Positions 8,086-26,793 of a stretch of 47,480 nt of DNA are shown here, one piece after another. The notes under the pieces are model-generated. The model did not search any database, was not told the DNA's origin, and saw only the letters and a list, made by a program, of their open reading frames with translations. Position 1 is the stretch's first letter. Each line of letters opens with the position of its first letter. Source of the DNA: Sphingobacteriaceae bacterium (GTDB lineage Bacteria; Bacteroidota; Bacteroidia; B-17B0; Aurantibacillaceae); NCBI GenBank assembly GCA_023251775.1, contig JAHEYC010000018.1, positions 1 through 47,480 of the forward strand, read 5' to 3'. The translations under genes were made by a program, and so were the position numbers.

Positions 8086-10503
8086 CTAGAACTTCAAACT
8101 TACCCCGCCCATAAAATGTACCGGGGCGGCCGGCGCCATATAATTATAAGTATTTAGCTGATTCCCTAGGTAATACCCATAAGTATAACCATTGGTTTCG
8201 TATACGGTATTAAAAATATTGCTCATGGTAAACATCAGCCCTAATTCTGTTGAATTTTTGAACTTATAGGTATAGTTAAAACGCAGATCATTATAATTAT
8301 ATGGATTTATACTCCGCTCTTTTTTGGCTGTATTATCTAAGAACTGGCGATCCACATATTTATTTATAAAAGCGATCTCCAATCCTTTTATCGGTTTAAG
8401 AGTTAATACTAATGATGAAATAGTATTTGGAGAAAATGAAATATCGGTATTCTTATACGTTGCTAGAACCTGTCCGCCATTATCGTAATCATCGGTGTAT
8501 TCTTTGAACTCTGCAATTTTGTTTTGCGATACTGTAAGATTACCACTCAAGGTTAAATACTTCACAGGCGCATATGCAAATTCAAATTCTGCACCGCGAC
8601 GAAAACTTTTTGCCACATTCACACGCGTATACGAACCAACATCATTTACTTTACCGCTTAATACCAATTGATTTGTATAATCCATATTGAACATGTTCAC
8701 CTGCATGCTTAACTTGTTTGTTTGGTAACGAACACCTAATTCAAGATCCTTCAAATTCTCACTTTTTGGTCTACTCTTTGGCGTTGAATTCACATAATCA
8801 TCACGGTTGGGTTCTTTGTTCCCAATAGCAAACGATCCGTAAACACTCATTTTAGAATTCAAATTGTAAGTAGCGCCAAACTTTGGATTAAAGAATGTCA
8901 TGGAAGCAGATTGTTTCTGACCCGAAGTTATCGAATCACTAAACCCTAAATAGGAATATGTGATGCGGCGTTCTTGAAGATCCATGATCAAATACAAATT
9001 GTTGATAGGGTTATAATTGAGCTTCAAATAAGTATTTGCATCCTTTTTAGCGGCGGTATTTTTCATGTACTCGTAATCGATCGTTGAATTTGAAGCATAG
9101 TTTGCCCACATCAATCTATTAAAATGACGGCCATAATAATCATTATAGCCACCACCATACACAATAGTTAGTTTGTTAGTTGCCTTCAGATTGAAATTTC
9201 CTAACACACCGGCAAAATCATTATCCAACCATAAACGACGTACAATATCGCTTGTGGTGATGGTATCTCCCTTTGGAGTAATAACATCGTTGATGCCATA
9301 TTTACTTAAGCTCTCACCTTGTCTCAATTCTTCATAATAACCTTTTCCCTTGGTATAATGCCCGGTTAAGTTAAACGCTAGCTTTTCATTTATACTTCTT
9401 GTATAATGCAATTGGTAATTATCCTGTTGGTAATTATCAGTTTCATTATCATAATATTTTGTGTTGCCATTGCTATCTGTAAACATTCCTGCCTGATTAT
9501 AAGTTCTGTTCCCTCTTCCCAGCGAATCTTTCGGTACATAATACCAAGCCTGATAGGTTCTTTCTTTTCCTGTGAATGCGATAAATTTTAAGACATCTTT
9601 CTTGCCGTAATATCCTGCCGATAAATACATAGATCCCAAATTACTTTTCGCGCGATCAATATAACCATCACTTGTAATTTTTGAAGCGCGCGCATCAATA
9701 GTAAATTTATTATTGATCAATCCTGTTCCAAAGGCCAAGGTATTTCTAAACGTGTTGTAAGAACCTACTGTGGAAATTACTTGTCCGTAAGCTTTTTCAT
9801 TTAATTGATTGGTTTGAAAATTAATACTCGCACCAAAAGCTCCTGCACCATTAGAAGATGCACCAACACCACGTTGTACTTGAATACTATTTACACTCGA
9901 CATCAGATCAGGCATATCTACAAAATAACTTCCTTGACTTTCGGCATCATTTACAGGAACGCCATTAATTGTAACGTTGATGCGCGTTCCATCCGATCCA
10001 CGAATACGCAAACCTGTATAACCAACGCCATTTCCTGCATCAGTATTCACAACCACACTTGCCATTTGATCTAAAAGCATTGGCGCATCCTTACCCAAAT
10101 TATTTTTTGAGATGTCCTCCTTACTCATTTCACTAAACGCCATTCCCGAAAATTTTCCGGCACGTGTAGATTGTATCACTACCTCATCCAATGTTTTATT
10201 ATCGATCACCAACGTGTATTCCTTATTTAGATCTCCGTTTGCTTCAACTGTATCGCTGATGGTATGATATCCAACCGAATGCACTTCAATGATCTGTTGC
10301 CCTTTTGGAAAATTATCTATGATGAATTGCCCCAGTGCATTGGTAATTGCCGAGGCATAACCTTTTTTAATTCCTAACACGGCAAACGAAATGGCCTCAC
10401 CTTTTTCATTCTTAACTATTCCCGTAAATTTACTTTGCGCATTTAACTGCATGGCAAATGCTGTACTTAAGAGTACAAACAAATACGTTCTTGTTCTTTT
10501 CAT
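8086..10503 (-). CDS. TonB-dependent outer membrane receptor, predicted thiamine importer
   Basis: This 805-residue outer membrane receptor has a signal peptide (about 1-22), a carboxypeptidase-like regulatory domain (about 23-110, GIVKNEKGEAISFAVLGI), a plug domain (about 120-230, with LRIRGSDGTRINVTINGVPVND), and a TonB-type beta-barrel ending in an aromatic-hydrophobic C-terminus (GGVSLKF). It imports a ligand across the outer membrane using TonB energy. The TPP riboswitch directly upstream on the same strand indicates thiamine or a thiamine phosphate as ligand; comparative genomics has tied TPP-controlled TonB receptors in Bacteroidota to thiamine uptake. A PnuC/PnuT-type permease gene and a TenI/ThiE-like gene lie 2-3 kb away. 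The start is the ATG at 10503, about 60 bp below the aptamer. Confidence 0.9.
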   Translation of the reverse strand: MKRTRTYLFVLLSTAFAMQLNAQSKFTGIVKNEKGEAISFAVLGIKKGYASAITNALGQFIIDNFPKGQQIIEVHSVGYHTISDTVEANGDLNKEYTLVIDNKTLDEVVIQSTRAGKFSGMAFSEMSKEDISKNNLGKDAPMLLDQMASVVVNTDAGNGVGYTGLRIRGSDGTRINVTINGVPVNDAESQGSYFVDMPDLMSSVNSIQVQRGVGASSNGAGAFGASINFQTNQLNEKAYGQVISTVGSYNTFRNTLAFGTGLINNKFTIDARASKITSDGYIDRAKSNLGSMYLSAGYYGKKDVLKFIAFTGKERTYQAWYYVPKDSLGRGNRTYNQAGMFTDSNGNTKYYDNETDNYQQDNYQLHYTRSINEKLAFNLTGHYTKGKGYYEELRQGESLSKYGINDVITPKGDTITTSDIVRRLWLDNDFAGVLGNFNLKATNKLTIVYGGGYNDYYGRHFNRLMWANYASNSTIDYEYMKNTAAKKDANTYLKLNYNPINNLYLIMDLQERRITYSYLGFSDSITSGQKQSASMTFFNPKFGATYNLNSKMSVYGSFAIGNKEPNRDDYVNSTPKSRPKSENLKDLELGVRYQTNKLSMQVNMFNMDYTNQLVLSGKVNDVGSYTRVNVAKSFRRGAEFEFAYAPVKYLTLSGNLTVSQNKIAEFKEYTDDYDNGGQVLATYKNTDISFSPNTISSLVLTLKPIKGLEIAFINKYVDRQFLDNTAKKERSINPYNYNDLRFNYTYKFKNSTELGLMFTMSNIFNTVYETNGYTYGYYLGNQLNTYNYMAPAAPVHFMGGVSLKF

Positions 10504-10563
10504 TCTAACTAATAATTTAATTAAACGGACCGTTACAAGGGGATTGCATTGGCCTTTTAACTC

Positions 10564-10742
10564 TCTCCCTACGCAGGCATTACCCTGTTCAGGTGCTTAA
10601 CAAGCGCTTTGGGAAGCTCACTCGTTAATGGGTATGATCTCAGCCTTTGAAAAGTTTCTAGTTTCTGGTTACTAGTTTCTGGTTGGCGGTGTAGAACCAG
10701 AAACCAGAAACTTCAAACTAGGAACTTTAAAAAAGCACCCCT
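10564..10742 (-). promoter_or_regulatory. TPP riboswitch (thi element) with expanded P3 arm and an extra hairpin before P4
   Basis: On the minus strand the conserved TPP aptamer parts appear in order: GGGGTGC (10739-10733), GGCTGAGATCATACCC (10643-10628), and ACCTGAACAGGGTAATGCC followed by TGCGTAGGGA (10592-10564). These are the P2/J3-2 CUGAGA and P4/P5 binding elements. Two parts are enlarged. P3 spans about 10643-10732 (about 90 nt against roughly 15-20 normally) and is built from complementary TTTCTGGTT / AACCAGAAA repeats. A 35-nt hairpin occupies 10593-10627 between the P2 3' strand and P4. The element lies about 60 nt above the TonB receptor start. It should repress the receptor when TPP is plentiful. 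Confidence 0.92.
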
Positions 10743-10820
10743 TAAGACGAGGCAATGTTACGAATTATAATTCATGTCCAAAAAATATTTAACCTTTTTG
10801 TCTAACTTTAGGATGTTAAT

Positions 10821-11943: not shown

Positions 11944-12471
11944 TTAAAAATACTTCTGTATTGCAGCGATCGCATTTTTTAACCGCTCTTTATCAAAACC
12001 TTTGATCACTTCAAATTTCAATCCAAGTTTTTTTAATTCATCCACATGCATTTGCATGATCTGTTTTCGGTTGTGTTCGTTACGGCGTTGTTCATCCGCC
12101 ACCCAAGGAAGATCAATATCGCAAAGCAAATGTAATTGATGATCGGTGTGCATGATATTTTTTTGAATGAATTCAGGTACCGTTTTAAAAACAACTTCTG
12201 CCCACACTTTACCGGAAATTAAATTGGTATCACAAAATAAAAAACTATCTGCACGTTTAATGGCCTCGCGTTCCCACAAAATTTGTTTTTCATAAATAAT
12301 ATTCAGATCCTCTTTTGTATGTCCCTCAATATTTTTTGTTTGAAAATAATCTCGCGCATATTCAGGAACATACACTGTATTATAATGCAAAGCCAATTGT
12401 TCGCACAATATAGTTTTGCCGGTGCTTTCGGGACCAACAACTGCTATTTTAATGATCTTTGAGTTCTCCAT
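11944..12471 (-). CDS. NadR-like nucleoside kinase, AAA_28 P-loop ATPase
   Basis: This 175-residue P-loop protein has Walker A GPESTGKT (residues 13-20), followed by LCEQLALHYNTVYVPEYARDY and an acidic FCDTNLI segment. These match the ribosylnicotinamide kinase domain of NadR without its adenylyltransferase part. The known family reaction is phosphorylation of nicotinamide riboside. Here the gene overlaps a PnuC/PnuT-type permease gene by 28 bp and sits beside thiamine-linked genes, so a role in trapping imported thiamine (or another vitamin nucleoside) by phosphorylation is a reasonable alternative. It is the last gene of the five-gene minus-strand operon that starts at 14912. The substrate is undecided. 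Confidence 0.78.
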   Translation of the reverse strand: MENSKIIKIAVVGPESTGKTILCEQLALHYNTVYVPEYARDYFQTKNIEGHTKEDLNIIYEKQILWEREAIKRADSFLFCDTNLISGKVWAEVVFKTVPEFIQKNIMHTDHQLHLLCDIDLPWVADEQRRNEHNRKQIMQMHVDELKKLGLKFEVIKGFDKERLKNAIAAIQKYF

Positions 12472-12995
12472 GAATAAAAGCCATAAGCGGCCATAGCTGT
12501 AAAAACAAAATATAAAATGGCGAACAAGGGCATTTGTTTAATGCCATATAAAATAACGTAAGCACCATCTATCAATACCCAAAACGCCCAATTCTCGATC
12601 CATTTTTTTGTCATCATATATGTAGCAGTAATACTACACGCCGTTAAAATGGAATCAAATATTACTTGATCGCCTTTGAATTTTTTGAGAAGAAAATAAT
12701 ACAACACAGCTTGGGCTAATGTAGCAAGTAACATCACCAACCACCTATTCATTGGCGTGTTTGTTACTTTAAATTCTTTTTTCAGATTTTCGCTCCAATA
12801 CCACCAACCATAAACACCGGCCACAAAATAAAATCCTTGAAGACACATATCACCAAATAAATGTTGCTTGTAAAACTCAATGGAAGATGTAATAACGCTC
12901 AAAAGTGCAAATGGCCAACACCAAATACGCTGCATGATGGTAAAAAGAACACCCAGTACGCCTGTAATAAGTGCAATTATGCCCAGCACCGACAT
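12444..12995 (-). CDS. PnuC/PnuT family vitamin transporter
   Basis: This 183-residue inner membrane protein has about seven hydrophobic segments and the PnuC-family tryptophan-rich core (VAGVYGWWYWS at about 59-69, and WAFWVLIDGAYVILY at about 136-150). PnuC members move nicotinamide riboside by facilitated diffusion coupled to kinase trapping; PnuT members carry thiamine. The start lies immediately after the stop of the TenI/ThiE-like gene, and the 3' end overlaps the kinase gene, so the three are translationally coupled. The TPP-controlled receptor next door favours PnuT, while the NadR-like kinase favours PnuC. The specificity is therefore left open. Confidence 0.85.
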   Translation of the reverse strand: MSVLGIIALITGVLGVLFTIMQRIWCWPFALLSVITSSIEFYKQHLFGDMCLQGFYFVAGVYGWWYWSENLKKEFKVTNTPMNRWLVMLLATLAQAVLYYFLLKKFKGDQVIFDSILTACSITATYMMTKKWIENWAFWVLIDGAYVILYGIKQMPLFAILYFVFTAMAAYGFYSWRTQRSLK

Positions 12996-13628
12996 TTATT
13001 CGATCTTGATATTAAGTTCGTTGAAACGACGAATAATAAGCAGGAAGCGATCGCATGGTCTTTCGTTATCCCATATATAAGAACTGAAAGCTATTCCCGC
13101 GAATCCAAATTTTACTGTTTTTTCAATAACTTTATCTGTAACACCACCGCGTGCAATTATTTTTTTATCGGTTGTTTTTAATGCTGCAAGTAAAGCCTCT
13201 TCATAAAATCCTCCATATAATTCGCCTGTTAAATTATTGAACACAGTGCCCATTAAAAAATAATCAAAATCGTGTTCTTCCTTATTATGAATATTGGCCA
13301 AACGTTTATACGAACGAGTTTTGAAAAGTTTACCGAATTTTATACGCAAACGCAAACGTGTAAAAAAATATTTCCATTTCTTATTTAAATGTGTGGCGGT
13401 AAAATGAATTCCTTTAAGATCGTATTTAGCTGCTAAGATATGATGCGAGTGAATGATAATGCGGTTGTGGAAATATTTCGGGATCTCCTCGATGTAATCA
13501 CGCATTTCCTGGGTAGTAAGTTTTGGTTTCCGTAAATGAAGGGTCATCAAACCATCCTCAAACATTTTGGTTACCAAACTTGGTTCGTCGGGTAAGGTTT
13601 TAGATCCGGTTATGACAATAAGTTTCAT
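12996..13628 (-). CDS. Thiamine phosphate synthase / TenI-like protein
   Basis: This 210-residue TIM-barrel protein resembles the ThiE/TenI superfamily: an N-terminal LIVITGSKTLPDE strand, the LHLRKP phosphate-side motif, HHILAAKYDLKGIHFTATH, a LMGTVFNN segment in place of the usual GP-x-F/T-K, and KKIIARGGVTDKVIE. ThiE joins the thiazole and pyrimidine halves of thiamine; TenI proteins are related thiazole tautomerases. Several canonical catalytic positions differ, so enzymatic thiamine phosphate synthase activity is not certain. The ATG start gives a 14-bp gap from the GGGP synthase gene, and PnuC/PnuT begins on the next base. A cytoplasmic place in thiamine metabolism is supported by the neighbours. 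Confidence 0.78.
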   Translation of the reverse strand: MKLIVITGSKTLPDEPSLVTKMFEDGLMTLHLRKPKLTTQEMRDYIEEIPKYFHNRIIIHSHHILAAKYDLKGIHFTATHLNKKWKYFFTRLRLRIKFGKLFKTRSYKRLANIHNKEEHDFDYFLMGTVFNNLTGELYGGFYEEALLAALKTTDKKIIARGGVTDKVIEKTVKFGFAGIAFSSYIWDNERPCDRFLLIIRRFNELNIKIE

Positions 13629-22970: not shown

Positions 22971-23663
22971 ATGAGTGGAAAATTATTTGTAGTGCCAACT
23001 CCCATCGGTAATTTGGAAGACATGACCATTCGTGCCATCAATACACTAAAAGAAGTGGATCTTATTTTTGCGGAAGATACACGCAATACTCTTTTTTTAC
23101 TCAAGCATTTTAATATTGAAAAACCTGTACGATCGTATCACATGCACAACGAACATAAAATTTTAGAAGATGCGGTGAAAATGATCACGAACGGACAAAA
23201 TGTGGCTTTGGTTTCCGATGCAGGAACACCGGGCATTAGCGATCCGGGATTTTTATTGATAAGAGAAAGTATAAAACATGATATTGAAGTAACAACTTTA
23301 CCGGGACCAACTGCATTTGTGCCTGCATTGGTTAGCAGCGGATTTCCTTGCGATACATTTGTGTTCTACGGATTTTTACCGCAAAAAAAAGGAAGACAAA
23401 CCAAATTAAAACAACTTGCTAAAGAAGAGCGCACATTTATTTTATACGAATCTCCTTTTAGATTGGTAAAACTTTTAGAAGAATTAAAAGAGTATTTAGG
23501 TGATGAAAGAAGAGCTTGCGTATCTCGCGAAATAAGCAAACTGTATGAAGAAAATAAACGCGGAACATTTGCCGAATTGATAATTTACTTTTCGGCGAAA
23601 CCAGTGAAAGGTGAAATTGTATTAACTATAGAAGGCATTAACGATGGGAAAGAAAAGGCGTAA
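22971..23663 (+). CDS. rsmI: 16S rRNA (cytidine-1402-2'-O)-methyltransferase RsmI
   Basis: RsmI uses SAM to methylate the 2'-O of C1402 in the 16S rRNA decoding centre. The protein (about 230 residues) carries the family motifs LFVVPTPIGNLEDMTIRA at the N-terminus, FAEDTRNT, LVSDAGTPGISDPG, TLPGPTAFVPAL and FYGFLPQKKGRQ. It is somewhat shorter than enterobacterial RsmI because it ends soon after the methyltransferase fold. I chose the ATG at 22971 (MSGKLF); a TTG two codons upstream is in frame but less likely. It overlaps corA by 20 bp, so the two are probably co-translated. Confidence 0.95.
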   Translation: MSGKLFVVPTPIGNLEDMTIRAINTLKEVDLIFAEDTRNTLFLLKHFNIEKPVRSYHMHNEHKILEDAVKMITNGQNVALVSDAGTPGISDPGFLLIRESIKHDIEVTTLPGPTAFVPALVSSGFPCDTFVFYGFLPQKKGRQTKLKQLAKEERTFILYESPFRLVKLLEELKEYLGDERRACVSREISKLYEENKRGTFAELIIYFSAKPVKGEIVLTIEGINDGKEKA

Positions 23664-24705
23664 AGTTACAAAACCCGATATCGGTTTGCCACCCGGAACA
23701 CTGGTGTACAATGGCAAAATAACTACCGAACGGGTAAAGATCACTCTTATAGAATACAATGATACAGAATTCTTTGAGCGTGAATTTTACGATCTGTCGG
23801 AATGTATGGTGCATGTAAAACAAGGCATGGTAAAATGGATAAATGTAGAAGGGATCCATAAAATAGAATTGATTGAAGCTTTAGGAAAACATTACGACAT
23901 ACATCCCCTCACCCAAGAGGATATTGTGAACATCGATCAACGTCCCAAATTTGAAGAGTACGCCAGTTACGCCTACAGCATCATGAAAATGATCACCTTC
24001 GACGGCCATGTTCATGCGGAACAATTATCGTTAATATTGACAGGAGAAACTGTGATATCTTTTCAAGAACCACATGGCGGTGATGCATTTGATGTGATAA
24101 GAACTCGTTTGCGACAAGCAAAAGGAAGAGTACGAAAATTAGGCTCCGATTATTTATTTTATTGTTTGATAGATGCGGTTGTGGATTCCTATTTCACCAT
24201 CATCGAAAAAATTGGTGATGCTGTTGAAGAGATCGAAGAAGAGATCATGAATAATGAGAACAAGCAATCGCTTAAAAAATTGTACGAATTAAAACGCGAA
24301 CTTATTTTTTTAAGAAAACAAGTTTGGCCAATGCGCGATATGATAAGTAATATGATCCGTTCCGAATCGGATTTTATTACCAAGGACACTCAAATATTTT
24401 TACGCGATCTTTTAGATCATAGCACACGAATTATTGATACCGTTGAAACTTATCGCGATCTGTTAAGCGGTATCATGGATGTATATTTAAGTAATACTTC
24501 CAATCGGATGAATGAGGTAATGAAAGTTCTCACCATTATGTCGAGTATTTTTATTCCCGTAACATTTGTGGCCGGAGTTTACGGAATGAATTTTCCGAAC
24601 ATGCCCGAGATACAATCGCCAAGCGGTTATGCTATTGTTTGGGGAATTATGATCGTGATGATGTTGGGGCAGATCATTTATTTCCGGAAGAAAAAATGGC
24701 TGTGA
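23644..24705 (+). CDS. corA: Magnesium/cobalt transporter CorA
   Basis: CorA is a pentameric inner membrane channel for Mg2+ (also Co2+ and Ni2+). The 353-residue protein has the cytoplasmic N-terminal funnel domain (about 1-285, with WINVEGIHKIELIEALGKHY and HPLTQEDIVNIDQRPKFEEY), a long helix (about 225-285), and two C-terminal membrane segments (about 292-312 and 326-345). The universal pore signature Tyr-Gly-Met-Asn lies between them (GVYGMNFPNMPE), and the tail is basic (RKKKWL). The ATG lies within the end of rsmI. A 15-bp inverted repeat right after the stop serves as the likely terminator against the convergent T9SS gene. Confidence 0.96.
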   Translation: MGKKRRKVTKPDIGLPPGTLVYNGKITTERVKITLIEYNDTEFFEREFYDLSECMVHVKQGMVKWINVEGIHKIELIEALGKHYDIHPLTQEDIVNIDQRPKFEEYASYAYSIMKMITFDGHVHAEQLSLILTGETVISFQEPHGGDAFDVIRTRLRQAKGRVRKLGSDYLFYCLIDAVVDSYFTIIEKIGDAVEEIEEEIMNNENKQSLKKLYELKRELIFLRKQVWPMRDMISNMIRSESDFITKDTQIFLRDLLDHSTRIIDTVETYRDLLSGIMDVYLSNTSNRMNEVMKVLTIMSSIFIPVTFVAGVYGMNFPNMPEIQSPSGYAIVWGIMIVMMLGQIIYFRKKKWL

Positions 24706-24710
24706 GCATG

Positions 24711-24771
24711 AAGTTTAGAAAGTTCATCAGTTTTGAAAGTTACAAAGTTAACTTTCGAACTTTCTAAACTT
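24711..24771. repeat. GAAAGTT-type inverted repeat, probable bidirectional terminator
   Basis: A perfect 15-bp inverted repeat (24711-24725 with 24757-24771) with an inner GAAAGTT (24735-24741) / AACTTTC (24750-24756) pair. It fills the gap between convergent corA and the T9SS type B gene. The iterated short-word style recalls the TTTCTGGTT arm in the riboswitch. Confidence 0.7.
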
Positions 24772-24783
24772 TCAACTTTTAAA

Positions 24784-26793
24784 CTAGAGTAAAGTAAAAG
24801 ATCCCTTCAACTCAATATACTCGCCTCTGGAATTCTTGTAGGTTATCAAATACACATAGGTATCATTTGGAGAACCGCTACCATCCCAACCTTTTGTATC
24901 GTCGTTGGTATTGAATAATTGATTTCCCCAGCGGTTGAAGATCTTTAAATTATAATCGCTCTTATCTACAAAATGCGTTACAGGTCTCCACACTTTATTT
25001 ACACCATTAGGCGCAAATGCAGATGGAATAAACACATCCGCTTCTACATACGTAGTAGCGCGATTTGAATTTGCTGTTTCGGCAATATTGTTTGGATTTC
25101 CCAAGGCTTCAATGGCAATTACCATGTACTCTACTTTTGATCCTTCCGAAGCGGCATCTTCTACATTATCGATGTATTCGTTCACAGGACCATTTGTATA
25201 ACCTGTAGGCTGCGAAGGGATCACATCATTCACAATTCTGTAAACGCTATACCCGCCTAAACCTCCGCCAAAAGCTGTATAATTATTCCAGGTTAATTTT
25301 TTCTCGAACATGCTTTGTTTTACATCGGCAACTTGTAACCAAACCGATTTTACAATAGCACTTTGTGTACGATCATTACCGCAACTATCTTTTGCTAATG
25401 CTTTATAATAATAATTACGCTCGCGTGTTTTTAATTTTGAATCATCAAATACGTAATTTGGTCCGCCCGTAAAATTAATGAAAGCAATTTTTTTATACGA
25501 GGTGCCATCTTCGCTTCGGTAAAGATCAAATCCGCTTCCCATTTTAATAGCATCCACAATAAATTTAATGCGAATGGTCTCATCACCCGTAACAGAAACC
25601 GAACTCACATAAATAAAATCGGGTGCAACGGTTTGGTAAGAAAAGAAATTAACACGATTGGATGAAGACGAAACTGTTTTATTTGCGTTGAAAGCGCGAA
25701 CGTAATAGGTAACATTTTTTGCGGGATCAACACCGGTATGCGTATAGAATGTATTATTGGTTGATCCTAAAAATTGAAATGCTCCACCATTTACCGAATA
25801 GTAAACGCGGTATTCCGAAACCGATGACCAACCTGAATAAGCTGTCCAACTTAATTGTGTTTGATACGCGCATTTATCGTAGGTATGATCCAAATAAATT
25901 GTTTTGTGCGGGAAATTCAATAAACCCGGTTTACCACAACTATCAATTGGTGCCGTTAAAAATTCTACAGGATTATTTAGCGCGGCTGTTGGTGTAAATG
26001 TATAAAGTGTCGTGAATTTTCCCGGAACAATATCCATAAGTGTATTCGTTGCCAATACTTGATAAATATTATAACCCCAACAATCTCCTGAAACAGAAGG
26101 TTGATATCCAATTACAGTTTGTCCATTTGGTAAAACACTTACTGAATCAACCAAGCTGCGTGTTGGTCCGTTCTTATCTTGAAAAATTCCACCCGGAACA
26201 TTTGAAATAGAAGTACAACCCGAACCATCTCCAATTACAACTTGGTAATTATAGGTTTGCGGCGTACAAATTGTAATTGAATCATTATACGAAAGATTTC
26301 CCGTGTTCAATAAATTTACCCAGGTTGCGCTTGGATATTCTCTTTGAATAGAAAAACTTACGGATGTACTTGCCAACGGTGGTTGATGCAATTGATTGTA
26401 GGATAAATGTGCAACGCCATCATTTGGATTATTTAAATTCAAAAAAATACTTTTTAATGTATCAGAAGGTGCAGAAATACTTGAGCCACCCGGACCAAAT
26501 TTTGTTCTCACAAAATAAAATTGACTTTGTGTATTTGCTGCAGTGGTTGTGTGAGTGAAAGATGCATTTCCAATAGAACCCATAGTTCCAATATTTGTAA
26601 ACGGACCACTTGCTAAAACAGAATGAAAGATCTCGTAACTAAAAAATAATCCACCCGGATCGTTGGTTGGGATCCAAGTTAAAATTACATTTCCGTTAGC
26701 TTGAACGGCCAAACAACGCAACTGAGGAGCAGCTACTTGCGCTTTCAAGAGGTTGAGGAGTAAAATAAATATGGCTATATGTCGTACTTTCAA
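24784..26793 (-). CDS. T9SS type B sorting domain protein with fibronectin-like repeats
   Basis: This 669-residue protein has an N-terminal signal peptide (about 1-19) and a series of fibronectin type III-like sandwiches; FN3-like strands such as VILTWIPTNDPGGLFFSYEIF, TQLSWTAYSGWSSVSEYRVYY and KKLTWNNYTAFGGGLGGYSVY are seen in outline. The end is the gliding motility-associated C-terminal domain (about 585-669): FIPSAFAPNGVNKVWRP, YNLKIFNRWGNQLF, WDGSGSPNDTYVYLITY and GSFTLL. That domain marks it as a T9SS substrate secreted to the surface or medium. Ligand unknown. A TAACTTTG -7 element lies 17 bp above the ATG. It is divergent from another T9SS cargo gene. Confidence 0.9.
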   Translation of the reverse strand: MKVRHIAIFILLLNLLKAQVAAPQLRCLAVQANGNVILTWIPTNDPGGLFFSYEIFHSVLASGPFTNIGTMGSIGNASFTHTTTAANTQSQFYFVRTKFGPGGSSISAPSDTLKSIFLNLNNPNDGVAHLSYNQLHQPPLASTSVSFSIQREYPSATWVNLLNTGNLSYNDSITICTPQTYNYQVVIGDGSGCTSISNVPGGIFQDKNGPTRSLVDSVSVLPNGQTVIGYQPSVSGDCWGYNIYQVLATNTLMDIVPGKFTTLYTFTPTAALNNPVEFLTAPIDSCGKPGLLNFPHKTIYLDHTYDKCAYQTQLSWTAYSGWSSVSEYRVYYSVNGGAFQFLGSTNNTFYTHTGVDPAKNVTYYVRAFNANKTVSSSSNRVNFFSYQTVAPDFIYVSSVSVTGDETIRIKFIVDAIKMGSGFDLYRSEDGTSYKKIAFINFTGGPNYVFDDSKLKTRERNYYYKALAKDSCGNDRTQSAIVKSVWLQVADVKQSMFEKKLTWNNYTAFGGGLGGYSVYRIVNDVIPSQPTGYTNGPVNEYIDNVEDAASEGSKVEYMVIAIEALGNPNNIAETANSNRATTYVEADVFIPSAFAPNGVNKVWRPVTHFVDKSDYNLKIFNRWGNQLFNTNDDTKGWDGSGSPNDTYVYLITYKNSRGEYIELKGSFTLL

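Follow-up and report, generated by a model that had tools for sequence, protein, structure and literature searches.

A TPP riboswitch variant with an extra helix in J2/4 and a long, very probably repeat-derived P3 arm ahead of a TonB-dependent receptor gene

The aptamer and its detection by covariance models

The window, i.e. the whole 47,480-nt stretch of DNA analysed here, carries on its minus strand a gene for a TonB-dependent receptor preceded by a TPP riboswitch (Table 1). The start codon of the receptor lies about 62 nt downstream of the aptamer, which itself begins a few nt 3' of a probable promoter box, called on the basis of TAnnTTTG, which we take to be the Bacteroidota -7 consensus; many relatives have a comparable box ahead of the aptamer. 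Nearby in the window, a PnuC-like transporter (PF04973) adjoins a NadR-like AAA_28 kinase (11944-12995), probably an NAD-precursor salvage pair, and we found no riboswitch match ahead of the two genes. The stretch 12996-13628 encodes a divergent thiamine phosphate synthase/TenI-like protein that falls under the NCBIfam equivalog cut-offs.

Reading the minus strand from 10741 to 10566, we located every conserved block of the TPP aptamer in order, i.e. GGGG(U/G)G, CUGAGA, ACCC, ACCUGA and GCGNAGGGA. This is in good agreement with the initial annotation, which had called the core complete on this strand and had given the element a range, 10564-10742, that is correct to within a few bases. The core columns are invariant in our 41-sequence alignment (A1), folding and covariation place all of the helices P2, P3, P4 and P5, and the aptamer stretch folds at z -3.74 relative to shuffles. 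It is the sole RF00059-like place in the assembly. That this is a TPP riboswitch with the parts listed in Table 1 is, in our judgement, almost certain. As a side observation, the P4-P5 element of two relatives (L119 in G138 and L122 in G094) is two nt below the usual 29 (ACCTGCGCAGG...).

Table 1. Features of the riboswitch locus, in the direction of transcription (window coordinates)
Feature	Coordinates	Strand	Basis
Probable Bacteroidota -7 promoter box TAACATTG, one mismatch to TAnnTTTG	10753..10760	-	sequence
P2 5' strand GGGGTGC	10735..10741	-	GGGGTG invariant in 41-sequence alignment A1
Extended P3 arm, 92 nt, words TTTCTGGTT/AACCAGAAACTAG	10644..10735	-	fold z, genome copies, orthologue P3 lengths
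CTGAGATCATACCC: pyrimidine-sensor J3/2 and P2 3' strand, without P3a between	10630..10643	-	sequence, alignment
CTGAGA block	10643-10638	-	sequence
ACCC block	10633-10630	-	sequence
Extra J2/4 helix, 35 nt, conserved and covarying	10595..10629	-	7 pairs; covariation with and without window
P4-P5 pyrophosphate sensor, ACCTGA...GCGTAGGGA	10566..10594	-	sequence, alignment, covariation
ACCTGA block	10594-10589	-	sequence
GCGTAGGGA block	10574-10566	-	sequence
Possible outer pairing of the downstream hairpin	10562-10556 with 10525-10519	-	
Downstream hairpin with C-rich loop (TCCCC, 10543-10539), candidate expression platform	10527..10554	-	stem covaries in 45 relatives
TonB-dependent receptor (carboxypeptidase-like domain, plug, barrel)	8086..10503	-	Pfam

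The element shares with the THI element of RF00059 the helices P2, P3, P4 and P5, the J3/2 UGAGA, the accompanying sequences and a place in the leader of a thiamine-related gene; it differs in that a J2/4 helix replaces 4-5 unpaired nt, in that P1 is weak or missing in the family, and in that it scores under the Rfam cut-off. At the gathering score, an Rfam search returned no match in the aptamer stretch. When aligned with E-values, RF00059 reaches 33.3 bits (E 6.8e-5), below the gathering cut-off of 54.3, which is an annotation threshold and not a biological feature, and because of the insertions the alignment picks the wrong P2 and P3 strands. Since our model R1 contained the window, we built a further covariance model, R2, from 16 short-P3 relatives with the window excluded. 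Under R2 the window scores 89.8 bits (E about 8e-21), and all 18 named insert-type examples (defined below) are recovered at 46-88 bits; the Rfam cut-off drops 17 of the 18. The initial annotation had held that a poor score under the Rfam model would speak against its reading: the score is poor when taken literally, but the insertions are the cause, and the insert-aware model recognises the window. Note that the phylum search with R1 was left out of the counting because R1 matches canonical copies too. Rfam matches of the P3 arm to mir-3914, MIR837 and other microRNAs were set aside as generic long-hairpin matches far under the cut-off.

The extra helix in J2/4

Of the 150 relatives, 142 gave a match in our receptor search, often a distant one, and RF00059 matches were found in 135 relatives, above the cut-off in just 70 genomes. 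We parsed 122 aptamers, measuring each segment, and they fall into two kinds: canonical copies, in which J2/4 is 4-5 nt long, and insert-type copies, in which it spans 16-37 nt. In the window the insert is the second hairpin that the initial annotation had placed between the P2 3' strand and P4, and in the window's family, copies ahead of the receptor orthologue carry it as well.

Several lines of evidence show that this insert is a conserved helix. Each of the seven pairs of its stem has changed on both sides in the 41-sequence alignment, with 89.9% of the cells paired. In the same alignment, the structure as a whole reaches a covariation score of 0.376, as compared to 0.119 for the shuffled and at most 0.09 for the slid versions, and the covariation of the J2/4 helix collapses upon a slide of a single column. 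With the window removed from the set, the J2/4 stem alone scores 0.849 against 0.248, a value that 0 of 500 shuffles reach. Among 131 distinct inserts the median dG is -8.9 (-2.1 when shuffled), 125 fold better than their shuffles at p<=0.05, and an outer pair lies within 3 nt of both ends in 93% of inserts and in 18% of shuffles. Finally, the helix is kept in all 30 of the closest orthologues, i.e. the 29 on the receptor tree and a thirtieth, L038.

Two identifications of the hairpin were rejected. Extending the intergenic-repeat insertion proposed in the initial annotation to this second hairpin fails, the helix being conserved, covarying and widespread in bacteria, and present in orthologues with and without a long P3 arm alike. 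The other candidate, the known P3a, sits in the P2/P3 junction, 5' of the P2 3' strand, and is excluded by position: in the window only 4 nt (TCAT) separate CTGAGA from ACCC, and the gap is equally short in the other insert-type copies. Both P3a (Barrick and Breaker 2007, PMC2258182) and the helix described here are optional extra hairpins tolerated by the aptamer; the window's helix comes after ACCC, however, and P3a itself is absent. Our literature search, the scope of which lay outside the Rfam seed and the original THI-element paper (Rodionov 2002), found no such J2/4 insert.

Two purines, A10629 and G10596, flank the helix in the window, and other relatives have G and A in their place; within the family the flanks are A..G or G..A and rarely anything else. 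On the receptor tree the two purines switch jointly in 2.9 of 3 independent changes, and since three changes are too few for significance, we consider this paired swap suggestive. Together with the loop, in which much of the family retains a G-[NYCAA]-C-like pattern although the stem beneath it changes, the swap would fit a loop that makes a specific tertiary contact or alternative pairing, either as part of the switch or as a docking site. We nevertheless think such a role unlikely, since loops outside the family differ and inspection by eye revealed no conserved complementary partner.

The P3 arm and intergenic repeats

As the initial annotation had noted, P3 is enlarged by about 90 nt of complementary units. 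The arm measures 92 nt and on its own folds at -34.1 kcal/mol (z -6.3), with 0 of 200 shuffles folding as well. It has matches elsewhere in its own genome (best E-values 2.5e-11, 3.0e-10 and 3.7e-9, plus weaker ones), and of the nine readable repeat sites six overlap no ORF of at least 100 aa, two touch the end of an ORF and one lies inside a mechanical ORF. With similar copies at unrelated, mostly intergenic sites of the same genome, the arm belongs to a dispersed family of intergenic hairpin repeats.

Comparison with orthologous loci points the same way. The length of P3 in insert-type copies is bimodal, at 15-26 or 44-95 nt with none between, and on the well-supported receptor tree of 29 orthologues the distribution of long and short P3 needs at least six changes. 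For two relatives, the arm likewise has matches among the repeats of the relative itself or of genomes close to it. The arm common to G007 and G018 has about a dozen more sites in G018 and others in G007 and G014, with no match in the window's genome or in G046; the G058 arm matches G058 and elsewhere, among the genomes tested, gives one weak match, in G052. The proposal of the initial annotation that the arm may be an inserted intergenic repeat is thus supported by the genome copies, the bimodal lengths and the repeated changes, and we think it very probable that the arm is a hairpin repeat of the host that has been turned into P3. Genomic repeats can, it would appear, become part of a regulatory RNA where the position is permissive.

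The initial annotation had also pointed to 24711-24771 as a repeat of the same style. This hairpin (region 24705-24785) lies between the ORFs 23644-24705 (plus strand) and 24784-26793 (minus strand), and recurs in at least five other places of the genome at E <= 0.0015. The likeness of style stands, in that it is an intergenic, repeated hairpin, but its words (AAGTTTAGAAAGTT) differ from those of the P3 arm: it is a member of another repeat of like style. The repeat of the P3 arm recalls REP/REPIN palindromes, which are likewise dispersed intergenic hairpin repeats, and the window's genome does contain Y1 transposase-like genes; G014 has related repeats and no PF01797 match. Y1_Tnp genes were found in six of seven genomes, G014 being the one without. 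Four Y1 transposase-like (PF01797) genes, possibly REP-associated, lie outside the window in its own genome (G000:C33, C25, C131 and C94).

Long arms are unevenly distributed: they are found in 31 of 45 insert-type leaders of the family and in 2 of 52 canonical ones. This could indicate that the long arm is functional, e.g. by stabilising the transcript or acting as a pause element, and has been selected rather than tolerated. Its repeated gain and loss among relatives and a sequence that tracks the repeats of the host argue against selection, as do eukaryotic P3 elements of 100 nt or more, reportedly without inhibiting activity (PMC4260697), and we regard a selected function as decidedly unlikely. 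In algae and fungi P3 ranges from 7 to 115 nt (PMC4260697), and lengths of up to 172 nt have been described for TPP riboswitches (PMC11683625). The algal and fungal long P3 elements resemble the one studied here in being elongated without touching the core and in the trouble RF00059 has with both; the window's case differs in being bacterial and in that its arm copies a dispersed repeat of the same genome.

A more radical alternative is that both oddities are neutral intergenic-repeat insertions in a degenerating riboswitch and that the J2/4 hairpin has no function. The inserts do vary widely in sequence and in length (15-40 nt), and the P3 arm is a repeat. However, the J2/4 helix persists throughout the closest orthologues while P3 flips, the compensatory changes in every pair largely refute neutrality, the core residues are invariant and the insertion point is identical in distant lineages. 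We therefore consider this alternative very improbable. The element is a real, conserved variant of a known riboswitch, with the J2/4 helix as its main feature and the repeat-built P3 arm as the second.

Distribution, gene context and proposed switching

An exact-pattern scan of 84,980 species found the insert pattern in at least 120 contigs. The matches listed include Sphingobacterium, Pedobacter, Algoriphagus, Chryseobacterium, Empedobacter, Mesonia, Arenibacter, Fulvivirga and Olivibacter, as well as many Treponema, other Spirochaetaceae, one Ignavibacteria genome and a few others; among these listed matches, J2/4 inserts of 15-40 nt, nearly all of them hairpins, occur across Bacteroidota, in Treponema and in others. 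Within the class, 58 of 295 genomes have the insert pattern and 88 the canonical one, and none has a reversed control pattern.

Next to 68 named insert-type loci, the following gene encodes a TonB receptor in 29 cases (with plug domains), a PnuC/PnuT-type transporter in 21, an extracellular solute-binding protein in 13, and ThiT and ThiC in one each, and ThiC lies downstream of 18 of the 27 canonical copies fetched, the two samples being unequal, of different origin and uncorrected for phylogeny. Since canonical copies before transporters exist too (three of PnuC type: L047, L048 and L050), the association of the insert with transport is a tendency. One might take this link to uptake rather than biosynthesis genes as a sign of a different ligand, such as thiamine or a precursor, which we hold to be extremely improbable, the conserved binding-site columns being those of canonical TPP aptamers. 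Most of the insert copies tested fall under the standard Rfam threshold, and the annotation of thiamine-uptake regulons is therefore probably incomplete in Treponema and much of Bacteroidota.

The receptor itself is a probable thiamine outer-membrane receptor of the omr1/OMthi type, a substrate that we infer from the RF00059 matches upstream of most of its orthologues. As judged from sequence, the riboswitch would be a TPP switch of the ordinary OFF type whose junction has been remodelled, both TPP binding and the OFF direction being inferred. Taken as a whole, a TPP riboswitch on a TonB receptor gene, with a helix in its junction and a passive, repeat-derived P3 arm, is the likely reading. 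In Bacteroides, OMthi and pnuT transcripts are barely altered by thiamine (PMC5613172), which counts against this explanation as far as the direction and level of control are concerned. Bacteroidota are described as being without Shine-Dalgarno sequences and as tuning initiation by mRNA structure (PMC6847099), and so control may be translational here; the small OMthi transcript change fits translational control, without proving it.

In canonical aptamers the P1 duplex has a median of -2.8 kcal/mol, while in insert-type leaders of the family it has a median of +0.7 kcal/mol, which does not improve on the +0.4 obtained with swapped partners, a control that is blind to conserved UUAA:UUAA pairing. 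The window itself keeps a possible P1 of 4-5 weak bp (-3.7 kcal/mol), and so the loss of P1 is a trend of the family that is not established for the window. The C-rich loop of the downstream hairpin is complementary to AAGGGG in the 5' strand of the aptamer, and the C run is present in 44 of 45 family leaders; since reversal leaves a G run unchanged, the reversed control is uninformative and the claim for AAGGGG:CCCC is limited to conservation. In the window the downstream hairpin contains a 2x2 mismatch and is weakly better than shuffles (z -1.38). The minimum-energy fold of most leaders already contains the aptamer.

No riboswitch class is more widespread than that of TPP, which also serves as a model of tertiary folding in RNA. 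A helix in the k-junction strand together with a weakened P1 in one family amounts to a natural test of how the arms are held. In the k-junction, J2/4 is on the strand opposite P1 and the junction has an architectural rather than a binding role (PMC10573300). Many copies retain the positions that correspond to G1b and A2b; the differences lie in the helix interrupting the J2/4 strand and, in one group, in an A at the G1b equivalent, which goes with a G on the far side of the helix. Given the architectural role of the junction (PMC10573300), the J2/4 helix may likewise be architectural. P2, the new helix and P4 would meet at a junction where P1 is weak or gone in the family, and the helix would set the angle of the two sensor arms, i.e. 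the kinked geometry. TPP would clamp the P2/P3 arm onto the P4/P5 arm as usual. Without TPP, the downstream C-rich loop would capture the AAGGGG strand and the structure before the start codon would shift; TPP binding would compete with this capture and would therefore turn the receptor gene down. The GGGG:CCCC pairing is a prediction, and it would have to compete with a stable P2. We offer these switching steps tentatively, as somewhat short of probable. The P3 arm would be a passive terminal extension, with the intergenic repeat as distal P3 stem, and its repeated gain and loss would follow from binding not requiring the distal end of P3. A separate subclass, in which the J2/4 helix replaces P1 and GGGG capture does the switching, serving mainly thiamine uptake in Bacteroidota and Treponema-like spirochaetes and largely unannotated, is conceivable, and we think it rather doubtful.

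Two observations concern other leaders. In canonical thiC-type leaders (L005, L008, L009, L012 and others), CATTCCTAAAGT lies downstream of the aptamer and is the complement of two stretches, the P1 strand ACTTTAGG and GGAATGG at the start codon, from which a clean translational switch is predicted. Finally, in one relative, G075:C58:172676-173280 (L152) contains three consecutive RF00059 matches about 250 nt apart, possibly a triple tandem TPP riboswitch.
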